DNA of 20,134 nucleotides, from positions 1 through 20,134 of IMG/VR virus record IMGVR_UViG_3300005748_000031, one strand, 5' to 3'. Source of the stretch: a virus. Each line of letters begins with the position of its first letter. Positions within the stretch are counted from its first letter, which is position 1. Shown here piece after piece: positions 971 to 17,396 of this stretch. Position numbers and translations under genes: made by a program. The notes below the pieces were generated by a model. The model searched no databases, was not told the origin of the DNA, and saw only the letters and a list, made by a program, of their open reading frames with translations.

Positions 971-1453
971 TTAAGTAGACTTTGCTTGTATCACTATCCA
1001 TTGAGTTCCATCTGACCAAACAGTAACACCGTTATATGGTTTATTTAATGTATAGAATCCAGGATTTGGACTTCCATCTATACTTTCACCCACTGGTGCT
1101 AATACGTGTACTTTATCATTAGCAGCTAATGTACCATCAGATATAATTTGTATTTTTCTATAAGGTATATCTGCAGCCGATGGTAATGTTAAATCATATG
1201 TACCAGAAGCACCTGACCAATTTAAATATATAATATTTTTATCATCACTATAAGACGAGGAACCTCCTGGTGTAGCTGTTATGAAAAAAGGTGGTAATGA
1301 ATTTAATTTAGATTCAATATATTTTTCAAATTCTTCAAGTGTTATTTTCTTAGATTCATCCTGTGTAACACGTACTAAATACATAAGATCTTTTGTACGT
1401 ACCTCACTAGCAGTAATAGGGTCAAGTTCTGTTAATTTATCTCCTGTTGCCAT
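971..1453 (-). CDS. Short fibre-like structural protein (160 aa)
   Basis: The N-terminal ~50 residues (TGDKLTELDPITASEV, then ESKKITLEEF) resemble the anchoring segment that starts many Bacteroidota phage fibre proteins, where a short helical piece attaches to the virion. Residues about 70-160 are rich in beta-strand-forming and aromatic residues and end in TVWSDGTQWIVIQ, which suggests a compact, probably trimeric, C-terminal knob. No enzymatic motif is visible. The start codon overlaps the stop codon of the upstream 462-aa gene by one base (TAATG), so the two are probably translationally coupled. This is the last gene of the operon before two terminator hairpins. It is most likely a small head or tail fibre. 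The exact virion location cannot be told from sequence. Confidence 0.6.
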   Translation of the reverse strand: MATGDKLTELDPITASEVRTKDLMYLVRVTQDESKKITLEEFEKYIESKLNSLPPFFITATPGGSSSYSDDKNIIYLNWSGASGTYDLTLPSAADIPYRKIQIISDGTLAANDKVHVLAPVGESIDGSPNPGFYTLNKPYNGVTVWSDGTQWIVIQAKST

Positions 1454-2855: not shown

Positions 2856-3575
2856 TTATGGTATAACTGGAGGACAATCACCGTTTACGCTACAAGAACC
2901 TCCGTTATCTGTCACAGTCATTCCTTCAAGTGCATCGAATAGAGTCCCAGATTCTCCGTATTTAAATAGCTCGCTTAACTGGTCAACACAGAAACCAAAG
3001 TAACTAGATCCACCTGATGGTGTACCTATAGCATTCCTTAAATTTATAGGTTGTGGTAAAGTATCTCCACCACATGGATATAAGTTATAATATAGATCTT
3101 GTCCACCATCTTCTAATAAATCATCACGTACGCCCACTGTAATACAGAAACAATTCTCTGGTGCTACAGATGTTGTAGTGGTAGTTGTTGGTGGTGTTGT
3201 AGTAGTTGTAGTGCTAGTGCTACTGCTTGTTGTTGTAGTAGTTGTTGGTGCTATAGTGGTACTAGTAGTAGTTGTTGTACTAGTAGAGGTGCTTGTACTT
3301 GTTGTTGTACTAGTACTAGAGCTGGTAGTTGTAGTAGTAGTTGGTTGACAAGGGTTTTCTAAATCTATAAATGTATCACATGAACCAGTAGATTGAACTC
3401 TAATAAACGTTGTTCCATCAGGAGGAGTTGTAATATATCCCGAACCTGTAAGTGAGGCAGCATCTACTCCTGTTTCAAAAGGTGTTGTATACCCATCTAC
3501 ATTTGAATATAAGTCAAAAGGTCCTACTCCAGATCCTGCTGGTATTACTAATGATATTTGTATTTCTGGTTGCAT
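2856..3575 (-). CDS. Linker-containing structural protein with shared N-terminal module (239 aa)
   Basis: Three parts are visible. Residues 1-75 are the shared module (FDLYSNVDGYTTPFET, PDGTTFIRVQS, CDTFIDL). Residues about 77-138 are a linker made almost only of Thr and Ser with two IAP/PP breaks. Residues about 141-239 form a C-terminal domain with six cysteines (CFCITVG, PCGG, FGFC, GSCSVNGDCP) that I do not recognise. The layout (anchor, flexible linker, small compact domain) is that of a virion-attached adhesin. The linker could be extended or O-glycosylated, but nothing in the sequence proves it. The leader is a run of ten A, and no Shine-Dalgarno sequence is present. The gene lies between the 71-aa single-module gene and the propeller gene, both its paralogues at the N-terminus. 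Confidence 0.65.
   Translation of the reverse strand: MQPEIQISLVIPAGSGVGPFDLYSNVDGYTTPFETGVDAASLTGSGYITTPPDGTTFIRVQSTGSCDTFIDLENPCQPTTTTTTSSSTSTTTSTSTSTSTTTTTSTTIAPTTTTTTSSSTSTTTTTTPPTTTTTTSVAPENCFCITVGVRDDLLEDGGQDLYYNLYPCGGDTLPQPINLRNAIGTPSGGSSYFGFCVDQLSELFKYGESGTLFDALEGMTVTDNGGSCSVNGDCPPVIP
3170..3350 (-). repeat. Poly-Thr/Ser-coding low-complexity tract
   Basis: The plus strand is a run of GTA, GTT, GTG and CTA/CTT-type triplets, which reads as ACN and AGY/TCN codons on the coding strand and encodes the Thr/Ser linker of the 239-aa protein. Codons are mixed, so slippage of a pure triplet is limited, but the region is similar in base sequence to the linker tracts in the 2116-aa gene. Confidence 0.9.
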
Positions 3576-3590: not shown

Positions 3591-3806
3591 TTATGTCAAA
3601 GGTATGTCTAAATAATTAACACAGTCTCCAAGAGCTTGAACTCTTACTGATGTAGCATTATCAGGAATTATAAATTCAGTACCTGAAGTTAAAAGCACCT
3701 TAGGTATATTTGAAGCAAAAGGATTTAAAAACCCATCGCTATCTGAATATATATCAAATAGACTAGTGTCTCCGCCTGCTACTGTTAATGTTATTTCTAC
3801 TGTCAT
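3591..3806 (-). CDS. Stand-alone copy of the shared adhesin module (71 aa)
   Basis: The whole protein aligns with the first ~72 residues of the next two genes. Shared positions are F-D-I-Y-S-x-x-D-G-F-x-x-P-F near residues 17-30, PDNATSVRV near 48-56, and C-x-x-Y-L-D-I near 62-68. It ends exactly where the linker or propeller starts in the paralogues. It is thus a complete one-domain protein, not a broken gene. It probably folds as a small beta-domain. It may be the base subunit to which the longer versions are related, or a competitor for the same virion site. The ATG overlaps the stop of the upstream 62-aa... downstream-reading order: the 62-aa membrane protein ends with TAA sharing one base with this ATG (TAATG). 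Function unknown. Confidence 0.65.
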   Translation of the reverse strand: MTVEITLTVAGGDTSLFDIYSDSDGFLNPFASNIPKVLLTSGTEFIIPDNATSVRVQALGDCVNYLDIPLT

Positions 3807-3994
3807 TATTTCTTTCTACAAAAGAATGATTTAAAATATTTTATCCAACTTCCACTATAGTGCTTATTTATAACATTTACTTTTAACATTGACCCATAGT
3901 ATATCAATGTAGTGAGTGCCACTAATGTAGCTAATATTTCGTTTCCTAATAATAACATAAGAGATATTAATCCTATTTCAATTTTATAGTACAT
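3806..3994 (-). CDS. Small membrane protein (62 aa), holin/lysis candidate
   Basis: Residues about 5-36 are almost entirely hydrophobic (IGLISLMLLL, then LATLVALTTLIYYG), long enough for one extended membrane segment or a tight hairpin. The C-terminal 25 residues are basic and end in FFCRKK. A short hydrophobic segment with a positively charged tail is typical of phage holins and related lysis proteins, but no family signature is present. The gene starts two bases after the stop of the other small membrane protein and overlaps the next start by one base, so the three are probably translated together. A pair of adjacent small membrane proteins is consistent with a holin/antiholin or holin/spanin arrangement. 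That role is inferred from shape and context only. Confidence 0.55.
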   Translation of the reverse strand: MYYKIEIGLISLMLLLGNEILATLVALTTLIYYGSMLKVNVINKHYSGSWIKYFKSFFCRKK

Positions 3995-3996
3995 TT

Positions 3997-4227
3997 TTAT
4001 TTCTTTTTATTTCCAAGTGAATCTTGTATAATTTTTGCAAAAGCAATGATTTCACCCCAGAGAAAGATAATTCCTAGTCCAGTAAATACTGTATTATTTA
4101 AACCCCAATGAAAATCATCAAAGATTAATAATGCTGATAAGGCTGGAGCATATAACCCTATTAGTAAACAAACGTGACCTAGAACTATAGCTAAAACTTT
4201 TTTATATTTTTCTAAAAATGGTGACAT
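3997..4227 (-). CDS. Two-span small membrane protein (76 aa), holin candidate
   Basis: Two membrane segments are visible, at about residues 11-36 (VLAIVLGHVCLLIGLYAP) and 46-67 (TVFTGLGIIFLWGEIIAF). They are joined by a short loop (FDDFHWG) and flanked by a basic N-terminus (KYKK) and a basic end (GNKKK). This matches the size and topology of class II holins. The frame extends upstream to 4305, but I chose ATG 4227 because the extra 26 residues lie inside the 46-aa gene and have no membrane or domain features, and because an A-rich leader (AATAATTAAA) directly precedes 4227. No endolysin is visible in the window, so the lysis role stays a hypothesis. Confidence 0.6.
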   Translation of the reverse strand: MSPFLEKYKKVLAIVLGHVCLLIGLYAPALSALLIFDDFHWGLNNTVFTGLGIIFLWGEIIAFAKIIQDSLGNKKK

Positions 4228-4240
4228 TTTAATTATTATT

Positions 4241-4381
4241 TTATTTTGTACAGCTACAAGATGTTGGAGGATTTTCACCTTTAACATACATAGTTTGACA
4301 GCCACATGGCCAATTTAAAACTACATTATCACAATCAGGATTAACAGGTAAGAAGGCATCTTGATAATTATTACAACTCAT
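4241..4381 (-). CDS. Cys-rich mini-protein (46 aa) with two CxC motifs
   Basis: An open frame runs from ATG 4381-4379 to TAA 4243-4241. The product begins MSCNNYQDAF and has six cysteines at residues 3, 17, 26, 28, 42 and 44, including CGC (26-28) and CSC (42-44). Spacing of this kind suggests a metal knuckle or disulphide-stabilised mini-domain. The ATG lies four bases after the stop of the collar-type fibre gene, whose own product starts with the similar MSCSNCF. The stop lies 13 bases before the next start. It fits exactly into an otherwise empty slot. Function unknown; it could be a small neck or baseplate plug or an adhesin cap. Confidence 0.55.
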   Translation of the reverse strand: MSCNNYQDAFLPVNPDCDNVVLNWPCGCQTMYVKGENPPTSCSCTK

Positions 4382-4385
4382 AATA

Positions 4386-5510
4386 CTAAGGTATGTAAAT
4401 TATATAATATACACCAGTTCCTGGTTGGTAATTTTGATGTCCTTGATTTCCACCTGTGTCAGCATTTGATACACTTACACTAACAGTTTGAGTAACTTCA
4501 CCTGTTAGTCCTCTTGTAGCTGCATCTGATGTTCCTCTCATTGCGTATCCTAAATTACCACCAGTTGAATAACTTTGCCTTACTTGATTAGTTGCGGTAG
4601 GTGGATCTGTAGTGTTTGCACTTCCTAAGGATACCATAAGGTGACTATGTGTGTCAGGAGAAAGAACAGCTGTTGTGGTTGCAATGTGTGAGTGTGAAGG
4701 AATTTGTCCTTCAGTTAATACAACACTATTGTCTCCTGTTGTAGAACCTAGTGTATATGCTGGGTTACCTGAAACAGCAGGATCTACTGCTGAAGACATT
4801 GTTCCACCACCCATTCCTGCTGTTGCTCCTACTAACACTCTTCCTCTTAAATCAAGTGTTCCATTATTACCATTACATAAATATATTTTATTCCAGTTTC
4901 CTACACCTGCTCCAGAAGCATCAAAATTAGTTAATGGTCCTGCATAAGCTGTTATTGCATAAGGGGCCATTCTATTACTTATTAAATTTGCAGAAGGATC
5001 TGTTGATAGATAGTTTGCTATATAGGTGTTTATGTCAGATATTTTTACATATGTTGCATCTACAAGACTTATGAAAGAATCTAAATCTGTTTCAACTGCA
5101 CACAACTTAGTTATTACAGCCTGTAAAACATCATGTGTATTTGTATTATCTGAAACAGTTAAACACCCTAATGTATATTCTGTATTTGGATTTTCATTTT
5201 CAAGAGTTATTATTTTTTCATCTACTTCACATAATCCTTTAATTAACCCAGTTAAGTAGTCATTTAACGTAAATGGACCAACTGCTGGTAAATTTGATTG
5301 TATAATATTACAAAGAACACTCGGTGAAACGTTAGGTTCAATACCTGTTCCATCTAGTGCACTTACTAAATATTGAATTATTTTTTGCTCAACACTTAGC
5401 AATGAGTCTCCATTAGATATTCCTAACTCTGAAATATCTTCACCTGTGTATCTTACACATTTATCTGATGTGATTTCTACACATCCACTAAAACAATTTG
5501 AACAAGACAT
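4386..5510 (-). CDS. Tail-collar-type fibre protein (374 aa)
   Basis: The N-terminal 40 residues are Cys-rich (MSCSNCFSGCVEI, then CVRYTG), then GISNGDSLLSV, a start seen in many Bacteroidota phage fibres. Residues 40-175 are mostly helical, with conserved-looking LCN, GLC and KLC positions. From residue ~181 there is a phage tail-collar domain: IYLCNGNNGTLDLRGRVLVG at 209-228, QIPSHSH near 268-276, and the closing NYQPGTGVYYIIYIP. The LCNG / DLRGR / HxHxH arrangement is that of PF07484-like collar and microcystin-dependent-protein domains. The histidines often hold metal in trimeric fibres. It is probably a receptor-binding or short tail fibre. It uses a TAG stop, so TAG is not recoded here. 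The leader is A/T only. Confidence 0.8.
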   Translation of the reverse strand: MSCSNCFSGCVEITSDKCVRYTGEDISELGISNGDSLLSVEQKIIQYLVSALDGTGIEPNVSPSVLCNIIQSNLPAVGPFTLNDYLTGLIKGLCEVDEKIITLENENPNTEYTLGCLTVSDNTNTHDVLQAVITKLCAVETDLDSFISLVDATYVKISDINTYIANYLSTDPSANLISNRMAPYAITAYAGPLTNFDASGAGVGNWNKIYLCNGNNGTLDLRGRVLVGATAGMGGGTMSSAVDPAVSGNPAYTLGSTTGDNSVVLTEGQIPSHSHIATTTAVLSPDTHSHLMVSLGSANTTDPPTATNQVRQSYSTGGNLGYAMRGTSDAATRGLTGEVTQTVSVSVSNADTGGNQGHQNYQPGTGVYYIIYIP

Positions 5511-5538
5511 ATTTTATATTTTATTTTTATTATTATTT

Positions 5539-8500
5539 TTAAACTTTTGTTACTGAAATATTATCTAAAAGGATTTTATCTCCTGCTGCCCCTGAACCAT
5601 TATTAGGGTAAAACCTCATTTTCATTGTTGTTGCAGTGGCTGTAACTGTAGCTGTATATTCTGTCCAAGTATTTGTTAGAACAACTGTGCTCCATCCAGT
5701 AACACCATCCCATAGTTGTATTCTACCATCTGATCCAACTAATTCTCTTGCCCATATACTAACGTTATATTGCTCACCTACTTCTACTGTAACATCATAC
5801 TCAACCCTATCAAAACCACCTCCTGCAGCTCCATTTTCTAGCTCTATACAGTAAGAACCAAATTGTTGGTCTGTTGAATTAACAGATACAGATGTATTTC
5901 CTAACGTAGAAAAACCTGCTGTAGAATTTACTTCACCATCTGCATCTGCCGCAGCATTACCTGTAAACAATTCTTCTACAACTACTTCTTCTATTATTAT
6001 ACTACTTATCTCTAATAAATCACCTACAGTTCTTCCTCCTGCTGCGTTAGCCAAAGGATAGAATCTCATTTCAGCATCATTATTAGGATCGTTTGGTGTA
6101 AACAATACCTCAGCCTCTACCCACTGACCTGTCGAGAATGTACCACTTGGGTAAGTTACATCTGAGACTTCTCTCCAACTATTCATTGGGTGTTGAACTG
6201 GTGTTGTAGTTGATGTGTTTTTATATCTTATAGTAGCTTTGTATCGTGTGCCAACAGTTAAACCTGGTAATCTATTAAATCTATAACCAGCGTTTGATGT
6301 GCTTGTACTTCTAGCTTCTATTCCTATAGAAAAGTTTTGACCTACATCCGTAGAAACCATACTATTAGTAAAAAATGTAGAACTAGCTGACCAACCATCA
6401 TTAGAATCTATATCATTAGCTCCAACTGCATTGTCCCAAGGGTATACATCTGTGCTTACTACAGATATATTATCAATGCTAAATGGGCCACCACCACCTG
6501 AGTTACTACCTTTTATTGTTATTTCATTTCTGTCTGCTACAGTATGTGTGTAACCACTTATAGTATGTGTGCCATTACCATAATTAGTATTTCCTTCTAT
6601 AAGTTCATTTTGATTTCCTGCATACCAAGCTGTTCTTGCTGTACCTGCATTAGATATTGTAAATGTTATATTATAAGTACTACCTACTTTCATATCTGTA
6701 GATAATGACAACCTAACAAATTTGTCTCCGCTTGAATCTTTATTTAACGTACCACCAGAAACTGACCATCCGCCTGATGGAACGAAGACACCAGTTGAAT
6801 CATCAAAGGTTCCGTTCTGAAGTATTCCACTGTCAAAAGGTGGATTTAGACTGGTTGTGGTAGTAGTTGTTGGAGTTAAAGTGGTAGTAGTTGTAGTAGT
6901 TGGTACTGTGCCACCAATTTCATCTACTTGATTCATATACTCCTCTAACAACGTATAACCACTAGGTTGTATTTCGTTGTGAACAGTTGAGTTTCCTGTA
7001 ATACCGTTAGCATCTAAATATGCTTGTGGAATATAATCGTTAGTATCATAAAAATCTACAGGTCTTGAGTTTATAGGTGTTGTACTTATAGACGCTACAA
7101 AATTAGTAAATAACGTACTATTTATAGGATCGTTAACTCCACCATCATATGCAAAATCTGTTGCATTGTCATTTATAATATTACTATGATATTCAGTATC
7201 TAATGTATCCCTAAACTCGCCTACAGTTCCATCATCTTTCAAATACTTATAAGCACCTGAATTATTTGGTACTGCAGTTTTGGCTTGTTCAGCAGTTAAG
7301 AACGCACTAGGTACTCTTCCTACGTAACTCATAGGGTTTTCTACAAAGTAAGAATCATCTGCTTTGTTACGCTGCTGTCTGTCTGGTATTATCTCAGTAC
7401 CATCTACAAGTTGACCTGCATGATGCATCCATATGTATCTATCGTCTTGAAACTCATTAGATATATCAGCATCACTATCATCATATACGTATAAATCTTG
7501 TATTACATTATTCTTCGAATATATTGTAACGGGATCAGTTGCATTAGTAGTAATACCATTAACTTCCCAAGTAAAATTCTCAGGAGCACCATTCCAGCTA
7601 CTTCCTAAGTTTGTTCTTGTACCCTTGTAATAGTAGTTATTAAAATGATTAATTGCAGTACCATTTTTAATTACAGTTAGTCTATTAACCCAATCATAAA
7701 CAACATTGTTATACACATCCACATTTTGTGCAGAAGTGTTAGGTACTCTATGTGTAGAATGATACATTGTATTATTTCTAAACGTAAAGTCTTTACTAAA
7801 CAAATCATCAGTGTCACCAAAAAGTGCAGTCTTTGCGTTTTCTCCAAACATTATGTTTTGAAGTGTTACATTTTCACTACCCTCTCCTCTTATACTATAA
7901 GCCATATATTGTGCACCACTTATACTTAAGTGATCCATTATTATGTTTCTAGTGTAGTCACTTACACCGTTTCCTGCGTATTGTTGTATATTTTGGTACT
8001 CATCATTTCCTTGATATTGAGCTCTTACTTTAACATACCTCCATATGTGGTTTTCAATACTATTAAATCTACTGATCCCAAACCTTATGTTTTTATCATT
8101 AGATGTTATAGTTATACCACCTTGAGGAGCAGTTTGTCCAGCAACTGTTAAATTGTCACCTTGAACAATTAAACTACTTGTAAGCTCTATCGTGCCACTA
8201 ACATCAAATATAACTGTAGCTGGTCTTGCTTGAGTAACCGCCCATCTAAAAGAACCTACACTACCATCATCTAATAAGTTAGTAACTTTATAAACGTTAC
8301 CACCTCTACCTCCTGATGCGTATGCACCACCACCGTAAGCAGTTGGAAATGCTAATTGTTGTGCGGGAACTACATCTACTTGATTGTGAAAAGTTTCTAA
8401 CCAGGTATAACCTGTTCCAGGTACAATATCATCATGTGATTCTCCATTCATATTAGCAGCTCTCCAAATATCAGGTATTCCATCTTTTAATGTAGATGTT

Positions 8501-11500
8501 AAAGGTGTAGCTGAGTTGGGTTGAGGGTACTGTATTGCAGGAAATCTTGTTTGGCTTGTTGTAGTTTGTTTATTAACGCCTAAATCACGATAAAATGTGT
8601 CTAAAGCATATTCATCTTCAACTACTGAACCATCATTAGTTAACCTTTTTGTATTTCCAGTATAAGGTAATACTTCAGTCTTTATATCAGCGGTATCATA
8701 TATAGTACCAGCTTTGCCTATTAATGGAAATGCTGAACTTGCTCTTGCATCATTTGGAATAGGTAGGTCAGCTCCAATATCTGATCCTGAGAATGTTAAC
8801 CAAACATCATCAAATTCAGGGTAGGCTGGAGTGTCTTGAACTCCAGTTATTATAGTACCACCTGCGTAAAGTTGACAAGGTGCTGTTGATTGATATTGCA
8901 TTCTATGCCTTCCATAGTCATCCTTATTTGCTTGAACATACATATTCTGTACATTGAAGTTAGCATCACCAGTTGTTCTAATTAACCTTGAAGTATAATT
9001 ACCTACAAATATATTATAAGCATCTTGTTGAGAATTACTACCGTAACCTAACATATTAGGAAATCTATAACTTATATCTTGATAAGAACAGTATGCAGTT
9101 GTAGCATTTGACTCACCTGTGTAAGCTCCTATAATAGAACCTTTTGAACTAGCTGCCATCATACACCACTGAACAGTAACGTTATTCATTTCCCCTTGAC
9201 CACTACTACTAGCAATGCTAAAACATTCATCCCCTCCATAGAAGGCAGAACAATGATCAAATATTATATTTTCAGATACATTACCTGTAGAACTACTTAT
9301 CCATAAAACATCAGCACCTGGAGCAACAGTTCCTATGTTGTAAAATGATGTGTATCTCCAAATTAAATTACTAATATTCTCAATTTGAAAATAATCTGTT
9401 GAAAATACTATATTAGAAGTTTGACCACTAACAGTTATATTTCCTTTATTAGTCTTTGTGCTAAAATCCAAAACAGTGTAAGCAGGTACATCGATAGTAC
9501 CACTAATATCAAAAACTATTTCCTTAGCAGGTATATCTAATTCATAAAACATATTATAGAATCCACCTGAATAACTATCTGTAGCAGCATCGTATACTAC
9601 TGCAGTATCCCAAGTTAAGGTGTCAACGTGACACACTTTACCTCCTCTACCACCAGTTGCATAAGCTCCTGCTCCAACTGCTGTAGGGAATGCTAATTGA
9701 GCATTCGAATCAACTCCGTTTAAATAATTTTCAATCCAAGTATAACCATTAGGTGCTATATCATTCGCAGTTGCACCATTAGGCATATTAGCAGCTTCCC
9801 AAGCATCAGGTATTCCATCACCATTGGAATCTAGTGGTGGTGTTCCACTTGTTATTACTGGGAAGGTGTTTGAGCCATTAGTATCCTTTTGTGGATATTC
9901 TGTAGAAATTCTTGCTTTGTCGTAATCTGTAATATAACTATTTATAATAGTTACAACTTCAGCATCTTCACTATCCCTACCTGGTAATGATGCACCAACC
10001 GTATCTCTTAAACTTTCCCATAATGTTTCACTATTTTCAAGACCTGCATCTACTATTGTGTTACCATCTGCTATTATTGGTGTTTGGTGGGGAGTTATTC
10101 TTCTAAATTCTTGAGGTATTCTGTAATAGATTCCATTAGTTCCTTCTACCCAACCTGGTGGTGGATTATCTTCATAAGCACTCAATTGAGTACCTTGTGA
10201 TAAAGAGAACTCTTCATTCCAATCAGTAGGTGTTGTAATAGATGTTCTCCATTTATCATCAGTATTACCAAACATATAAACCTGAACTCTATCTTCAGCA
10301 GCAACTTCATTTATAGTGGTAAAGTTAGAACATTGCAAACCCCTACGCTTATTACCTTCCATAAGAAGTCTGTTACCTATCCAGTTAAGTTTAGCTTTAT
10401 ATTGTCTACTAAATGTAGTAGCGTAATTAAATCTAAATATTACATTATTTATAACTTCAAACTCAGGGTGCATATTTGGATCATCATCATAACCACTTAT
10501 ATCATTAGGCCCAGAACTAGCTATTGCAGGATTCCTTTGTTCAGTTGAACTAAATACGTTATTATAATAAGTAATCTTATTTACTTGGTATTTATTTAAA
10601 CTATTTTTTTCATCTGACAGGCATTGATGTAATATACTATTTTGAACTGTAATATTATAACAGCCCTGTGTAGCATCTAAATTTCCATCAGGAGACCAAC
10701 TAAGACTACAATGATCTATTATTACATCGTGAGCATTGCTTCCTATAACTCTTAACGAGTCTGCATTTGTATCATTAAGATAGTTTTCGGCATATCTAAT
10801 TTTAAGATGCCTTATAATTACATCGTTTGTTCTTATTTCTAAAATAGGTCCATTTTGCCCTTCTTTAGTTATCATAAGACCATCGCCAACCCCTCCTTGT
10901 CCTGCGTAGGTAACAAAAGGATTGTCTACTTGTATTGGTGAAGTTACATTAACTCTGCCACCAATTAAAGGTATAATTATTCTAGGACCACTTGCTTCAA
11001 ACGCTTCTCTTAAAGAACCAGTTCCACTATCGTTAAGGGTTGTAACAAACATTACTGTTCCACCTCTTCCACCTACTGAATTTTTACCATAACCTACTGC
11101 TTCTGGAAACGCTAATACTTCTTCCACAACTGTAGTGGTTGTTGTAGTAGTTGGTGGAACTAGTGTAGTAGTGGTTGTTGTAGTAGTTGGAGCTAATGTA
11201 GTAGTAGTTGTTGTAGTGGTTGGGGCTATAGTAGTTGTAGTAGTAGTTGTGGTTGGGGCTACAGTAGTAGTAGTAGTTGTTGTAATACTTGCAGCATTGC
11301 ATTCCTCACAAGTGTTATAAACATTAGTAACTGTATACTGTGCAGGTTCTGTACTTTTAGCTATAACTCTATTACACCAATTCTCAAATCCAAAAACAGG
11401 TATTTGAACATATTGACCAATTGTTAAAGGTGAAGTAGAATTTACAAAGAATTGTACACCGTTCACTAGAGGGCAGTTTTTTGCATTGAAGTTTGAACGT

Positions 11501-11889
11501 TGCACTAAGTAACTTTGAACACATTCTATTTCACCACTTGTAATTTCACAACTTAATGTAGTAGTGCTAGTAGTAGTTGATATACATTCTGAAGGTACTT
11601 TTGGACACCTTAATTCACACCCTGCAGTTAATTTTACAATCTTTCCTACAATATCATCTATAGAAAAATCCTCTACATAGTCTTCATCTTCTTGTTTATT
11701 CACAAGAATTTCTCTATATGTTAGTAGCTGTGTAAGTTCATAATTAGGTACAGATTTATTTAACATGAAAACAATATTGCTATACATGTCATAACTTAAC
11801 TCTGTTAATCTACAATCTATCTTTTCAAGTAAATCTGATATACTTATACCATTGCAACCATTACAATTTGTGAACTTACTTTTTGACAT
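5539..11889 (-). CDS. Giant tail spike: three pectate-lyase-like modules plus three C-terminal carbohydrate-binding-like domains (2116 aa)
   Basis: Order of parts: residues 1-100, a Bacteroidota-phage anchor (NCNGCNG; MYSNIVFMLN; LLTYREILVNK); ~105-200, a Cys-containing domain; ~202-254, a poly-Thr linker with IAP/LAP breaks; ~260-732, 733-1179 and 1180-1657, three parallel beta-helix modules; ~1663-1681, a second Thr linker; ~1685-1815, 1816-1970 and 1974-2116, three beta-sandwich domains of the CBM4/9 look (GSTYNITF, SIDNISVV, LLDNISVTKV). Each helix module opens with AFP(E/T)A and GGRGG. Each carries the PL1 D-H pair (D392-H393, D878, D1319) and an R-x-P further on (RNP, RFP, RVP). Modules one and two close with DGIPDxWxxAN and GYTWxE. 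It probably binds and cleaves, or only binds, a uronic-acid-rich capsule or algal polysaccharide. Activity is inferred. The length is exceptional for a phage spike. Confidence 0.8.
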   Translation of the reverse strand: MSKSKFTNCNGCNGISISDLLEKIDCRLTELSYDMYSNIVFMLNKSVPNYELTQLLTYREILVNKQEDEDYVEDFSIDDIVGKIVKLTAGCELRCPKVPSECISTTTSTTTLSCEITSGEIECVQSYLVQRSNFNAKNCPLVNGVQFFVNSTSPLTIGQYVQIPVFGFENWCNRVIAKSTEPAQYTVTNVYNTCEECNAASITTTTTTTVAPTTTTTTTTIAPTTTTTTTTLAPTTTTTTTTLVPPTTTTTTTVVEEVLAFPEAVGYGKNSVGGRGGTVMFVTTLNDSGTGSLREAFEASGPRIIIPLIGGRVNVTSPIQVDNPFVTYAGQGGVGDGLMITKEGQNGPILEIRTNDVIIRHLKIRYAENYLNDTNADSLRVIGSNAHDVIIDHCSLSWSPDGNLDATQGCYNITVQNSILHQCLSDEKNSLNKYQVNKITYYNNVFSSTEQRNPAIASSGPNDISGYDDDPNMHPEFEVINNVIFRFNYATTFSRQYKAKLNWIGNRLLMEGNKRRGLQCSNFTTINEVAAEDRVQVYMFGNTDDKWRTSITTPTDWNEEFSLSQGTQLSAYEDNPPPGWVEGTNGIYYRIPQEFRRITPHQTPIIADGNTIVDAGLENSETLWESLRDTVGASLPGRDSEDAEVVTIINSYITDYDKARISTEYPQKDTNGSNTFPVITSGTPPLDSNGDGIPDAWEAANMPNGATANDIAPNGYTWIENYLNGVDSNAQLAFPTAVGAGAYATGGRGGKVCHVDTLTWDTAVVYDAATDSYSGGFYNMFYELDIPAKEIVFDISGTIDVPAYTVLDFSTKTNKGNITVSGQTSNIVFSTDYFQIENISNLIWRYTSFYNIGTVAPGADVLWISSSTGNVSENIIFDHCSAFYGGDECFSIASSSGQGEMNNVTVQWCMMAASSKGSIIGAYTGESNATTAYCSYQDISYRFPNMLGYGSNSQQDAYNIFVGNYTSRLIRTTGDANFNVQNMYVQANKDDYGRHRMQYQSTAPCQLYAGGTIITGVQDTPAYPEFDDVWLTFSGSDIGADLPIPNDARASSAFPLIGKAGTIYDTADIKTEVLPYTGNTKRLTNDGSVVEDEYALDTFYRDLGVNKQTTTSQTRFPAIQYPQPNSATPLTSTLKDGIPDIWRAANMNGESHDDIVPGTGYTWLETFHNQVDVVPAQQLAFPTAYGGGAYASGGRGGNVYKVTNLLDDGSVGSFRWAVTQARPATVIFDVSGTIELTSSLIVQGDNLTVAGQTAPQGGITITSNDKNIRFGISRFNSIENHIWRYVKVRAQYQGNDEYQNIQQYAGNGVSDYTRNIIMDHLSISGAQYMAYSIRGEGSENVTLQNIMFGENAKTALFGDTDDLFSKDFTFRNNTMYHSTHRVPNTSAQNVDVYNNVVYDWVNRLTVIKNGTAINHFNNYYYKGTRTNLGSSWNGAPENFTWEVNGITTNATDPVTIYSKNNVIQDLYVYDDSDADISNEFQDDRYIWMHHAGQLVDGTEIIPDRQQRNKADDSYFVENPMSYVGRVPSAFLTAEQAKTAVPNNSGAYKYLKDDGTVGEFRDTLDTEYHSNIINDNATDFAYDGGVNDPINSTLFTNFVASISTTPINSRPVDFYDTNDYIPQAYLDANGITGNSTVHNEIQPSGYTLLEEYMNQVDEIGGTVPTTTTTTTLTPTTTTTTSLNPPFDSGILQNGTFDDSTGVFVPSGGWSVSGGTLNKDSSGDKFVRLSLSTDMKVGSTYNITFTISNAGTARTAWYAGNQNELIEGNTNYGNGTHTISGYTHTVADRNEITIKGSNSGGGGPFSIDNISVVSTDVYPWDNAVGANDIDSNDGWSASSTFFTNSMVSTDVGQNFSIGIEARSTSTSNAGYRFNRLPGLTVGTRYKATIRYKNTSTTTPVQHPMNSWREVSDVTYPSGTFSTGQWVEAEVLFTPNDPNNDAEMRFYPLANAAGGRTVGDLLEISSIIIEEVVVEELFTGNAAADADGEVNSTAGFSTLGNTSVSVNSTDQQFGSYCIELENGAAGGGFDRVEYDVTVEVGEQYNVSIWARELVGSDGRIQLWDGVTGWSTVVLTNTWTEYTATVTATATTMKMRFYPNNGSGAAGDKILLDNISVTKV
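6848..6903 (-). repeat. Poly-Thr linker tract 2 of the giant spike
   Basis: The tract encodes two blocks of six to seven Thr separated by LTP, at residues about 1663-1681. It joins the third lyase-like module to the first carbohydrate-binding-like domain. The base sequence is the same GTN-type triplet mixture as at 11129-11286 and 3170-3350. Confidence 0.85.
6915..11112 (-). repeat. Triplicated ~450-residue lyase/hinge module inside the spike gene
   Basis: Three in-frame copies run 9694-11112, 8353-9693 and 6915-8352. Each begins with AFP(E/T)A-x-G-x-G and GGRGG, has the D-H pair about 130-145 residues later, and ends with an ~45-residue segment containing DGIPDxW, AN and GYTxLExxxNxVD. In the third copy the hinge has decayed to NDYIPQAYLDAN. 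The copies differ strongly in the middle, so they are old duplications or separate acquisitions. Confidence 0.7.
11129..11286 (-). repeat. Poly-Thr linker tract 1 of the giant spike
   Basis: It encodes five blocks of seven to eight Thr, separated by VAP, IAP, LAP and LVPP (residues about 202-254). At the DNA level it is a repeat of ~25 bases made of GTA/GTT/GTG triplets on the plus strand. It lies between the virion anchor and the first lyase-like module. Frame shadows of this tract produce artificial poly-Val and poly-Tyr frames. Confidence 0.9.
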
Positions 11890-11990: not shown

Positions 11991-12569
11991 TCATCTAAAG
12001 TTTAATAGATAGTTACTCCCTGAACACCCGCACCCACACTTATTAAGACGCTTTAGCATTTTTTCAGCTTGATTATATAACTTTACTGCTTCTTTGTCTG
12101 CACAATTGTTAGCAGCAGATATTGCACCTTGTATAAAAAATTTAATAGTGTTAAGATGTACACTGGTTTGTTTTGCTAGTTCACCATCACATTCTGTTAA
12201 ATCTAACTTTAAAAAAGCATTGTTAAATTTTTCTTCTAATTGAGCAGTTCTTAGTATTGTCTTTTTTATCGATCTTGATGTTGCAGGAAACATTTTATTT
12301 ATTTCTATATAATACTCTATGCAATATATACCATCAGGAATGTCATTTTTGCAACCTGTTTCAGTTATACCTAAATCATCTGACCCATAAACATTTGTAC
12401 TATTTACTACAAAAGGTAAAGCCACTGGGTCAAATCCTGGTGGTGTAATTGTAACAGTTGGTTCATATACTATTGGTGGGTCATTAAGATAATAAGAAGC
12501 ATCTGTAATAATAAGATACTTAGGGTTATTATTACACCCTGTTACTAAATCTAAATTATAATCTAACAT
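11991..12569 (-). CDS. Conserved Bacteroidota-phage structural-region protein (192 aa)
   Basis: The N-terminal half (residues 1-95) is beta-rich: LIITDASYYL, TVTITPPGF, DIPDGIYCIEYYI. It resembles a recurrent protein type of Bacteroidota phage tail/neck regions in which an IgG-like domain carries a DGIYxIxY strand. The second half (100-176) is helical, with an amphipathic C-terminal part. It ends with CGCGC at 178-182. The reading frame is open up to ATG 12662, but that start lies inside the terminator hairpin. ATG 12569 is chosen because it follows the terminator, has an A-rich leader (ATTACAAAAGTGT), and starts the recognisable domain. It heads the adhesin module and is probably a connector between tail and spike. 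The exact role is not known. Confidence 0.6.
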   Translation of the reverse strand: MLDYNLDLVTGCNNNPKYLIITDASYYLNDPPIVYEPTVTITPPGFDPVALPFVVNSTNVYGSDDLGITETGCKNDIPDGIYCIEYYIEINKMFPATSRSIKKTILRTAQLEEKFNNAFLKLDLTECDGELAKQTSVHLNTIKFFIQGAISAANNCADKEAVKLYNQAEKMLKRLNKCGCGCSGSNYLLNFR

Positions 12570-12588
12570 ACACTTTTGTAATTTATTT

Positions 12589-12642
12589 TTTTTAAATAAA
12601 AAATGCCAGAGGATTGCGAGAATCCTTCTCACCCTCTGGCAT
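12589..12642 (-). terminator. Strong intrinsic terminator between neck and adhesin modules
   Basis: On the minus strand, ATGCCAGAGG (12642-12633) pairs perfectly with CCTCTGGCAT (12612-12603). Inside it, GAGAA pairs with TTCTC around a three-base loop. The stem is followed directly by TTTTTTATTT. It begins 27 bases after the stop codon of the 380-aa gene and ends ~20 bases before the next start codon. This is the clearest terminator in the window. Confidence 0.85.
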
Positions 12643-12668
12643 ATATTATATCTACTTATCAAACCTTA

Positions 12669-14569: not shown

Positions 14570-14726
14570 TCCTTAATGCTATTTGTTTAGCTACATCAGA
14601 AGTGTAACATAAATGATTATCTTCAATTTTACATTTACCTTCTTCAGCTGCTTTAAATAAAATTTCTTTTATTTTTTCATCATCAACTTTAGGGTATAGT
14701 TCTAAAAATTGTTCTTTAAAAGTCAT
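14553..14726 (-). CDS. Helical mini-protein between head and neck genes (57 aa)
   Basis: ATG 14726-14724 lies one base behind the TAA of the 322-aa gene (TAATATG), and the TAG stop lies 17 bases inside the next gene, so this frame is locked between its neighbours by translational coupling. The product (MTFKEQFLEL, DDEKIKEILFKAAEEGK, YTSDVAKQIALRND) is charged, amphipathic and probably all-helical, with two cysteines (residues 32 and 40). No family is recognised. A small helical protein here could be a head-completion or assembly factor, or a spacer that passes ribosomes on to the adaptor gene. Confidence 0.6.
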   Translation of the reverse strand: MTFKEQFLELYPKVDDEKIKEILFKAAEEGKCKIEDNHLCYTSDVAKQIALRNDTSR

Positions 14727-14727
14727 A

Positions 14728-15696
14728 TTACACTGATGCTAGTTTTTTAGATTTAAGTTTTCCTTCTAATGTCAATAACTCATCTTGGTTATCTTCGTCA
14801 ATTAAAAACTTTACTAATTCATCTTCATCTTTTGCTACTTCATATTCACCTTCATATACTGTCCCACTTGGTTTAATTCTATAAATTGAATGCTGAATAG
14901 CTTGTTTAACTAAATCTTTAATATGGAGTAAATCATCTTTCATGTTAGCAAACCTGTTAAATACTTCTACAGGATTTAAGCCTTTAAAGCTACCAGATTT
15001 AACTTCAGATTGTTTTAACATACTATCTACTTGATTGTAAACAACTTCTTCTTTTGTTTCATTTGTAACAGGTAGTCCTAAAAGTCTTGCAACTTTCTTT
15101 TTCTTTTCAGGTGACATACCGTCAAAGTTAATAATAGCTTTATTTATAAGTTGTTTTTTCTTATAAACAATTGCATTTTCAACTTCATCATCTACAACGT
15201 AGTATTGTGTATCTGCAGGAAATTCACCTCGTTCCCATGCCTGATAACTAGATGCAATTGTTGGATGCACTCTTAACCATGCAAAAGATAATTCTTGAAA
15301 TGTTTGATTTAAATCAAATAAATTATCACCGTCTAATAACTTAACAGGTTTTACATGTAAGTCGTCATTTGTACCAGTAGATTTTCCATAGTTCCAAAAT
15401 ACTGCTCTTGGTCCTAGATCAATATCTCCTAAAGCAGTTTGTAATTTATCTCGTAATGCTGTAACTCTTTCAATTTCAAGTTCTTTTTCTGTTGGATCTT
15501 GAATACGTTTGATATAAGATGCATCAGGATCTAAGCCTGTTCTATACTTACCATCAAGTTCTTTGTAAGGATATTTAAAAACTCCTGTTCCAGGAATTCT
15601 ACTCATCCCTTTAGCAGCTAATCCACTATCCATAGTTTGTAACTGAGAACTATTATATTCTCTTTTAATCGTAGAGATTTTTCCTATTTTACCCAT
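14728..15696 (-). CDS. Conserved protein following the capsid gene (322 aa)
   Basis: Function not recognised. It is mostly helical and charged. Visible pieces: GKIGKISTIKREY at the start; a Gly-Pro-rich segment (RIPGTGVFKYPYKELDGKYR); a helix (EKELEIERVTALRDKLQ); then DIDLGPRAVFWNYGK, an aromatic-rich core (TFQELSFAWLRVHPTIASSY), and KKKKVARLLGLPV. The end is acidic then basic (DEDELVKFLIDEDNQDEL, LKSKKLASV). There is no signal peptide or membrane segment. It directly follows the capsid gene across a structured 143-base gap and is coupled to the 57-aa gene. Genes in this place in Bacteroidota phages are usually conserved virion or head-assembly proteins, so a structural role is likely. Confidence 0.5.
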   Translation of the reverse strand: MGKIGKISTIKREYNSSQLQTMDSGLAAKGMSRIPGTGVFKYPYKELDGKYRTGLDPDASYIKRIQDPTEKELEIERVTALRDKLQTALGDIDLGPRAVFWNYGKSTGTNDDLHVKPVKLLDGDNLFDLNQTFQELSFAWLRVHPTIASSYQAWERGEFPADTQYYVVDDEVENAIVYKKKQLINKAIINFDGMSPEKKKKVARLLGLPVTNETKEEVVYNQVDSMLKQSEVKSGSFKGLNPVEVFNRFANMKDDLLHIKDLVKQAIQHSIYRIKPSGTVYEGEYEVAKDEDELVKFLIDEDNQDELLTLEGKLKSKKLASV

Positions 15697-15839: not shown

Positions 15840-17396
15840 TTAGAATTGTGGAATCTCTTCGATTAACACAGTTCTAGATAAATCCTCGATAAATACATCA
15901 CAACGATCTTTCATCCAGATTTCGTACCCTGGGAATTTATTAGCAGAGCTCATACCTTGAGACTTAGCAAAACCTAAGTGGTGACGAGTTCCATCAATAT
16001 AACCCCAAGTCATAGAAGGTGCACCCTTCATACGTACTTCACGGATATTGTTAATCATTGATCCATCAGATTCAGGTGATACATCAAATACCATAAATAC
16101 AGGAGTAGACTTTTTGTTTTGTCCAAACTCTAAATTAGTTTGTGGTAAATCTAACTCTTTTAAGTGAACAAGTTCCACCTTACCTGTTTCTCTTGTAACC
16201 ATTGCATCAAATGCAAAGTTATAGGTAATGTTTTGTCCTTGTCCTTGTAAGTATCTGTCTCCAGAATCTGCCATGAAAGTTAATCCAGAGTTTAATGCAT
16301 CATCTTTTAAAGCTTGTTGGAATACATCGAATCCAGCTTCATTAGTATACATTTTAACTCTTCTATCTTTAACATCCACTCTTCTGTAGAATAAATCTCC
16401 AAATACTGAACGTATTAAGTTAGCAGAAAACTCTCCACGGTTATACTGTACTAAGTTACCGTTATTTCTCATTCTGTGGTAAACACCAGCAGAAGTTCTT
16501 TTCAATTCTTGTTTAGAACCGTTAGTCTTAACTGTTCCAGGCTTAGCCCAGATCATTCTCTTAACTTTCAATTCAATCATAGACTTACGCATCCAGAATT
16601 CAACAAACGGTTCCCATTTAACATCGTTACGAGTTAATGGTAATTGGTTGCGTCTTTGAGGAGCATATACTAAAATGTCTAATGCTTTTCCAGAAGAATC
16701 ACGTAACATTTTGTCATCAGCCCACTCAGTGATTTTGTGCTCATATCCATATGCAGAACCTAAAGATTCAAACATAGTGATTTTCTCACCTAATCTAGGA
16801 AGACCTAATAAATCTTGATCAAATTCTCCAATTGCAGCATCGATTAATTCTAATTCAACACCTACTTGTAAGAATGTAGAAGAAATAAAATCTACAGTTG
16901 GGTTATCACTTACTAATGTAACTGTGTATAACCATCCTGCATTCCAAGGCTGTGGATCTTTTATTACATATAGACGTGGTCCATATTGACGTGTTCCTAC
17001 AGAGATGATAGCATTTTTAGAGAACTCGTTTGTATCTAATACAATTTGAAACTCTTGACCATCTATACCTGGCTTAGCTAAATCAGTTGTGCTTTCAGGA
17101 ATATCAATAATTACTGGAAATTTGTAAGGTACAGCGATATCCCATTTCCAAGAGTCACTATTCGTATCAATAAAGTACGGTGTGCTCTTGTTAATCATAT
17201 CTAAGAAATCATTGCTATACAATGAAGATTGAGTATACAAACTGATAATCTTTTTATCATAGTCTGCAGGCTCTGTCGAGTGAAAACTTTCCAAGTGGTT
17301 TGCGTCTGTGAGTTTTCCTACAGCACGTTTATCCATGGATGCAACCCTCGCATAAGTAAAACCAGTTAATCCTGGTATAGTTTGAACGTTTGACAT
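15840..17396 (-). CDS. Probable major capsid protein (518 aa)
   Basis: Size and place (directly behind portal and scaffold-like genes) are those of a tailed-phage major capsid protein. The N-terminus has TIPGLTGFTYARVASMDKRA, then HLESFHSTEPADYDKKI, and LYTQSSLYSNDFLDMI, a helix-rich start that looks like the capsid proteins of crAss-like and related Bacteroidota phages. Further on are PGIDGQEFQIVLDTNEFSK, RQYGPRLYVI, a basic stretch (RRNQLPLTRNDVKWE), and SGDRYLQGQGQNITYNF. No signal peptide or cleavage site is evident. The codon choice is visibly less AT-biased than in the adhesin genes, as expected for a highly expressed product. An HK97-type fold is assumed, not seen. The leader (AACAAAAAACGAATAAC) has no Shine-Dalgarno sequence. 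Confidence 0.75.
   Translation of the reverse strand: MSNVQTIPGLTGFTYARVASMDKRAVGKLTDANHLESFHSTEPADYDKKIISLYTQSSLYSNDFLDMINKSTPYFIDTNSDSWKWDIAVPYKFPVIIDIPESTTDLAKPGIDGQEFQIVLDTNEFSKNAIISVGTRQYGPRLYVIKDPQPWNAGWLYTVTLVSDNPTVDFISSTFLQVGVELELIDAAIGEFDQDLLGLPRLGEKITMFESLGSAYGYEHKITEWADDKMLRDSSGKALDILVYAPQRRNQLPLTRNDVKWEPFVEFWMRKSMIELKVKRMIWAKPGTVKTNGSKQELKRTSAGVYHRMRNNGNLVQYNRGEFSANLIRSVFGDLFYRRVDVKDRRVKMYTNEAGFDVFQQALKDDALNSGLTFMADSGDRYLQGQGQNITYNFAFDAMVTRETGKVELVHLKELDLPQTNLEFGQNKKSTPVFMVFDVSPESDGSMINNIREVRMKGAPSMTWGYIDGTRHHLGFAKSQGMSSANKFPGYEIWMKDRCDVFIEDLSRTVLIEEIPQF

Follow-up and report, generated by a model that had tools for sequence, protein, structure and literature searches.

The window analysed here is a complete virus record of 20,134 bases (IMG/VR record IMGVR_UViG_3300005748_000031). 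Its spike gene encodes a chain with three consecutive homologous modules of about 450 residues (M1, M2 and M3), placed between two Thr-rich linkers (Table 1). Each module shows an AFPxA motif (residues 260, 733 and 1180), a GGRGG motif (residues 273, 746 and 1193), a D-H pair (residues 392, 878 and 1319) and an R-x-P motif (residues 452, 942 and 1381). These motifs and the module boundaries confirm the layout proposed in the initial annotation, with which the mapping of residues 260-1657 to positions 11112-6919 agrees. The mutual identity of the modules is about 26% (BLASTP E 1e-10 to 2e-22), and the PHROG 27797 'pectate lyase' family matches the spike in three stretches (whole-protein E 3.6e-54).

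Table 1. Positions of the spike gene, its domains and further genes of the window.
Feature	Position	Strand	Basis
Spike gene, 2116 aa	5539..11889	-	open reading frame; same architecture, 99% aa, in L002
Putative N-terminal docking domain, residues 1-104	11578..11889	-	homologues in 78 capsid relatives
Small Cys-containing domain, residues 112-203	11281..11556	-	sequence inspection
Thr-rich linker, residues 204-253	11131..11280	-	33-bp tandem repeat, TRF array 11132-11284, 4.5 copies
Lyase module M1, residues 260-732	9694..11112	-	D392-H393, D401, R452; C-terminal DSNGDGIPD motif
Lyase module M2, residues 733-1179	8353..9693	-	D878-H879, D887-E888, R942; model; stand-alone homologues
Lyase module M3, residues 1180-1657	6919..8352	-	D1319-H1320, R1381; Y1328-M1329 in place of acidic pair; model
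Thr-rich linker, residues 1663-1685	6835..6903	-	30-bp tandem repeat 6841-6903
C-terminal beta-sandwich domain 1, about residues 1693-1795	6505..6813	-	DSSP strands, low-confidence model; approximate boundaries
C-terminal domain 2, residues 1801-1969	5983..6489	-	72% identity to L003 protein; weak CBM_4_9 E 0.015
C-terminal domain 3, CBM_4_9, residues 1986-2094	5608..5934	-	Pfam PF02018, above cut-off
Neighbouring tail-fibre-like gene	4386..5510	-	PHROG 8763/8469 tail proteins; adjoins docking gene in 75/81 records
Major capsid protein, crAss-like	15840..17396	-	Pfam PF23898 Crass_capsid E 1.6e-33

The binding-like tail expected behind the modules was also recovered, as beta-sandwich domains and as CBM_4_9 matches in two stretches of the C-terminal part (Pfam, E 9e-9). 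C-terminal domain 3 scores 28.8 bits against PF02018 (cut-off 25.9) and belongs to this family. A search of the C-terminal 456 residues against phages gave no match, and the low confidence of these domains in the structural model counts against the explanation we prefer below.

A second contig, L002, encodes a spike with 99% identical aa and scattered differences, so that the gene is no one-off assembly chimera. L002 lacks about 130 bases at window positions 14570-14737, a small insertion or deletion between otherwise 99% identical phages.

The portal protein of the window belongs to PHROG 6547 and is 28-30% identical to those of crAss-like phages. By its crAss-type capsid and portal proteins the phage is a member of the Crassvirales, and its host is probably a member of the Bacteroidota. 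A scan with the capsid protein found at least 598 relatives; in the best 80 of these, which were kept for comparison (L145-L224), the protein is 91-97% identical. Among GenBank phages the nearest capsid protein has 26.6% identity, and the capsid clade is seemingly an abundant, uncultured group of crAss-like phages. Leptolyngbya phage Lbo-JY46 (PP438436.1) encodes a crAss-like capsid protein, annotated as hypothetical only, with 26.6% identity over 99% of the query. This phage was deposited with a cyanobacterial host; its host may be either a contaminating member of the Bacteroidota or a host group that is new for such phages.

Fold, family and active-site residues of the modules

Searches with the module sequences detected PfPL1 (9buj) for M1 (phmmer E 4.8e-20) and for M3 (E 5.5e-10); M1 also matched VexL (phmmer E 2e-6). 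The M2 sequence revealed no credible match in the PDB, a hit to a complex I subunit being discarded as chance, with no support from structure. An AlphaFold model of M2 (58 rows, pLDDT 88.3, pTM 0.93) had 9buj as its best Foldseek match (E 6.4e-13) and aligned with it over 387 residues (VIA-align, Z 40.6, rmsd 2.4). The model of M3 with the C-terminus (pLDDT 67 as a whole and about 80 within M3) aligned with 9buj over 391 residues (Z 36.3, rmsd 2.9); Foldseek matches of this model with TM-scores near 0.1 were disregarded as meaningless. Behind 9buj, other PL1 structures come next for both models, whereas the beta-helices of known phage spikes reach Z values of about 14-18 only. The modules are therefore PL1-type and nearest to subfamily 2, M2 and M3 by their predicted fold and M1 by its sequence. 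Of the two families suggested initially, PL1 and not PL9 gives the best match, with parallel beta-helices predicted for M2 and M3.

The Pfam family Pectate_lyase_4 scores 22.4 bits for M1 and 18.4 bits for M3 against a cut-off of 24, and does not match M2. The module of L015 has all signature residues and yet no Pfam lyase match. Pfam coverage of these phage modules is poor, and its threshold marks a limit of detection rather than a defining feature; we therefore file the modules as PL1-type and not as formal CAZy members. Records of 'Bacteriophage sp.' from human faeces that carry PL1 genes may be bacterial.

Residue conservation was assessed in 159 phage and bacterial modules. The D-H pair is conserved in 99% of them; 152 have D in the acidic column that follows, and 157 have the Arg, among them M1 (R452), M2 (R942) and M3 (R1381). 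The Arg235 numbering used in the 9buj paper disagrees with the chain sequence as aligned to M1. A second Arg found in some PL1 enzymes, three residues past the first, is absent from M1, M2 and M3; it varies across the family, and its absence counts against our preferred explanation. M2 has an intact acidic pair (D887-E888). M1 keeps it in part, with D401 retained, E replaced by G, and an Asp three residues after this G. In M3 the D-H pair and R1381 are retained and the acidic pair is replaced by Y1328-M1329. The nearest relative of M3, L005a, has also lost the pair (T-S), so that the loss is no recent accident of this contig. Within the M3 group L099 shows N-S at this place, probably a separate loss, and L015 and L016 retain D-E. 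Members of this group provide an example of a lyase fold whose acidic site has apparently been lost on more than one occasion.

From these residues, M1 and M2 probably cut, and M3 probably binds or acts differently. All three modules could alternatively be active lyases with different specificities, a possible but rather unlikely reading in which M3 works without the acidic pair because PL1_2 catalysis may not need metal. PfPL1, a PL1 subfamily 2 enzyme with Arg220 as the proposed catalytic base, has been suggested to act independently of metals, which would serve in substrate binding (PMC11229556). The catalytic Arg kept in M3 and the intact reading frame are in line with three active modules, as is a dN lower than dS between M3 and L005a (dS near saturation). 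Few modules beside M3 and L005a have lost the otherwise near-invariant acidic position, which argues against this reading.

The initial annotation had also considered one active module beside two decayed binding copies. This fits poorly and is improbable: the missing acidic pair of M3 and the low typicality of M2, the least typical module with 42 of 65 conserved columns, speak for decay, but M1 keeps 54 of 65 columns and M2 has complete signature residues. M2 is moreover under purifying selection relative to its stand-alone copies in L003 and L004 (dN/dS about 0.19), and we therefore argue that it is functional. Since M1 and M2 keep D-H, acidic and Arg residues and the acidic pair is gone from M3 only, one altered and two intact modules are the preferred reading.

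The N-terminal domain in related phages

As the initial annotation could not show, the N-terminus of the spike corresponds to a small protein that is encoded on its own in the majority of close relatives. Homologues were found in 78 of the best 80 of at least 598 capsid relatives (91-97% capsid identity); among these, 71 of 78 have a short stand-alone ORF of 89-148 aa and 7 of 78 a long ORF of 469-1003 aa with other domains. The long versions carry a VWA-like domain (weak, below the Pfam cut-off), a Fib_succ_major domain (E 4e-36) or an unnamed domain. No PL1 module was found on the capsid strand of the other relatives among these best 80, within the flanks covered. The domain itself had no match in phages and PHROGs, or none better than E 0.02.

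The docking gene sits between homologues of 11991-12662 and 4386-5510, and the full order is kept in 75 of 81 records, the window included. Along this block the median identity to the window drops from 91% for the capsid protein to 75, 74, 65, 46 and finally 38% for the docking gene. The start of the Cys-containing domain (TTTSTTT-SC-ITSGEI-CV) is shared with stand-alone versions in L145-L150. All long versions have a Thr-rich stretch behind the docking domain, as do many versions of 115-148 aa; those of about 89 aa have none. In the window the Thr-rich stretches are tandem DNA repeats, which could act as joints or recombination points. The protein at 2856-3575 likewise has long Thr/Ser-rich repeats (TRF arrays 3171-3315) that resemble the spike linkers. 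In L204, a close relative with a small docking ORF only, a 1542-aa ORF (16768-21393) lies directly after the tail-fibre gene, and the spike of this lineage is perhaps encoded there.

Taken together, the docking protein looks like a plug-in socket on the particle. A virion-bound depolymerase is the likeliest role of the spike; its place on the virion is supported indirectly, by gene order and by the annotation of gp26 of Cellulophaga phage phi39:1, a homologue assigned to the virion by MS/MS. An accessory enzyme set free to break down polysaccharides of algae or plants, and no virion spike, is an improbable alternative. It would suit the PHROG category of the pectate lyase family ('moron, auxiliary metabolic gene'), which counts against a virion spike, and the pectinase activity of bacterial PL1_2 enzymes (PMC11229556). 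Against it stand the MS/MS annotation and the N-terminus, which belongs to a gene that keeps its place within the structural block in relatives.

Origin of the three-module array

M2 has stand-alone counterparts in two other phage contigs, L003 (84% identity) and L004 (82%). L003 is a crAss-like phage by its portal protein, which belongs to the same PHROG as that of the window. A gene near its M2 homologue (3752-4336) encodes a 194-aa protein whose 3' part matches C-terminal domain 2, there on a different N-terminus. L003 also has a co-chaperonin GroES-like gene (7138-7701), next to its lyase and terminase genes. A tail-like gene (5494-6774) of L004, the same contig that bears an M2 homologue, closes with the C-terminal domain of a small protein of the window (971-1453, which ends in VTVWSDGTQWIVIQAK).

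In other phages M3 has relatives (46-50% identity) that occur singly in L015, L016 and L099 and joined to a second module in L005. The nearest rows of M1 differ from those of M2 and M3, and the tree places the three modules in separate clades. AU tests reject a clade of M1, M2 and M3 (p 2e-4) as well as one of M2 and M3 (p 2e-40). That one module was recently duplicated in tandem in this phage, as adjacency and homology might suggest, is therefore most improbable and was ruled out within the sampled tree; M2 (82-84%) and M3 (46-50%) are far closer to relatives in other phages than the modules are to each other. Judged from their sequences, all three modules were acquired independently. Since their origins are independent, several sugar specificities in one spike are favoured, and we regard them as possible.

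Chains with three modules are rare, as had been supposed. Among the 170 module-bearing ORFs in the matches listed, which are no census, 157 have one module, one has two (L005), nine are partial and three have three modules, namely the window, its own copy L001 and the near-identical L002. Outside these three, the matches listed include no chain that joins three PL1_2-type modules to a small conserved socket, and the open-licence papers searched describe no three-lyase chain of this kind. Taken one by one the components are of known kinds; it is their combination that the searches made did not find elsewhere.

A proposed virion spike and its relation to known systems

We consider it fairly likely as a whole that the gene encodes a spike of a crAss-like virion. 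The small conserved structural protein (89-148 aa) would form a socket on the particle, to which a long C-terminal arm was added in this lineage. The arm would consist of a flexible Thr-rich linker, three PL1 subfamily-2-type modules drawn from a pool common to phages, a second Thr-rich linker and carbohydrate-binding domains. The latter would grip a polysaccharide, and M1 and M2, using the conserved Arg as base, would cleave polymers that contain uronic acids by beta-elimination, opening a path to the cell surface. Because M3 keeps the Arg and lacks the conserved acidic pair, it might bind without cleavage or cleave a different polymer. More tentatively, and with somewhat less than even confidence, the socket may be universal and carry unrelated surface-active domains, here an array of three lyases of distinct specificities, one of them turned into a conserved variant that is non-catalytic or metal-free.

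One virion protein may thereby cut, or grip, several sugars. Phages of near-identical capsid have at a single site either no addition or a VWA-like, Fib_succ_major or triple-lyase part, a natural case in which the effect of the spike on host range is separable from the rest of the virion. The three modules of the one chain differ in origin, which makes several specificities and one active module with binders directly testable against each other.

Among known proteins PfPL1 is the best match in sequence and fold, with a parallel beta-helix and C-terminal extension, D-H and catalytic Arg. Unlike the spike it is a single-module, secreted bacterial enzyme with about 20-24% identity; compared with it, M2 and M3 lack an intact C-terminal Ca motif and M3 lacks the acidic pair. 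The 'pectate lyase' proteins of Cellulophaga phages (phi39:1 gp26, phi13:2 gp087) carry a module of the same family in phages of Bacteroidota, but with one module per chain, another N-terminal domain and a phage that is not crAss-like. Beta-helix depolymerase spikes such as Klebsiella Depo32 (7vyv) share the general fold and likely role; they match the M2 and M3 models far worse than PL1 structures do (Z about 14-18 versus 36-41), and the spike is PL1-type. Crassvirales are known for variable, repeat-bearing tail proteins (review PMC10136315), and the spike resembles their tail spikes with BACON or other carbohydrate-binding repeats in this respect; the BACON-type repeats, however, are binding domains, whereas the spike described here carries three lyase-type modules.
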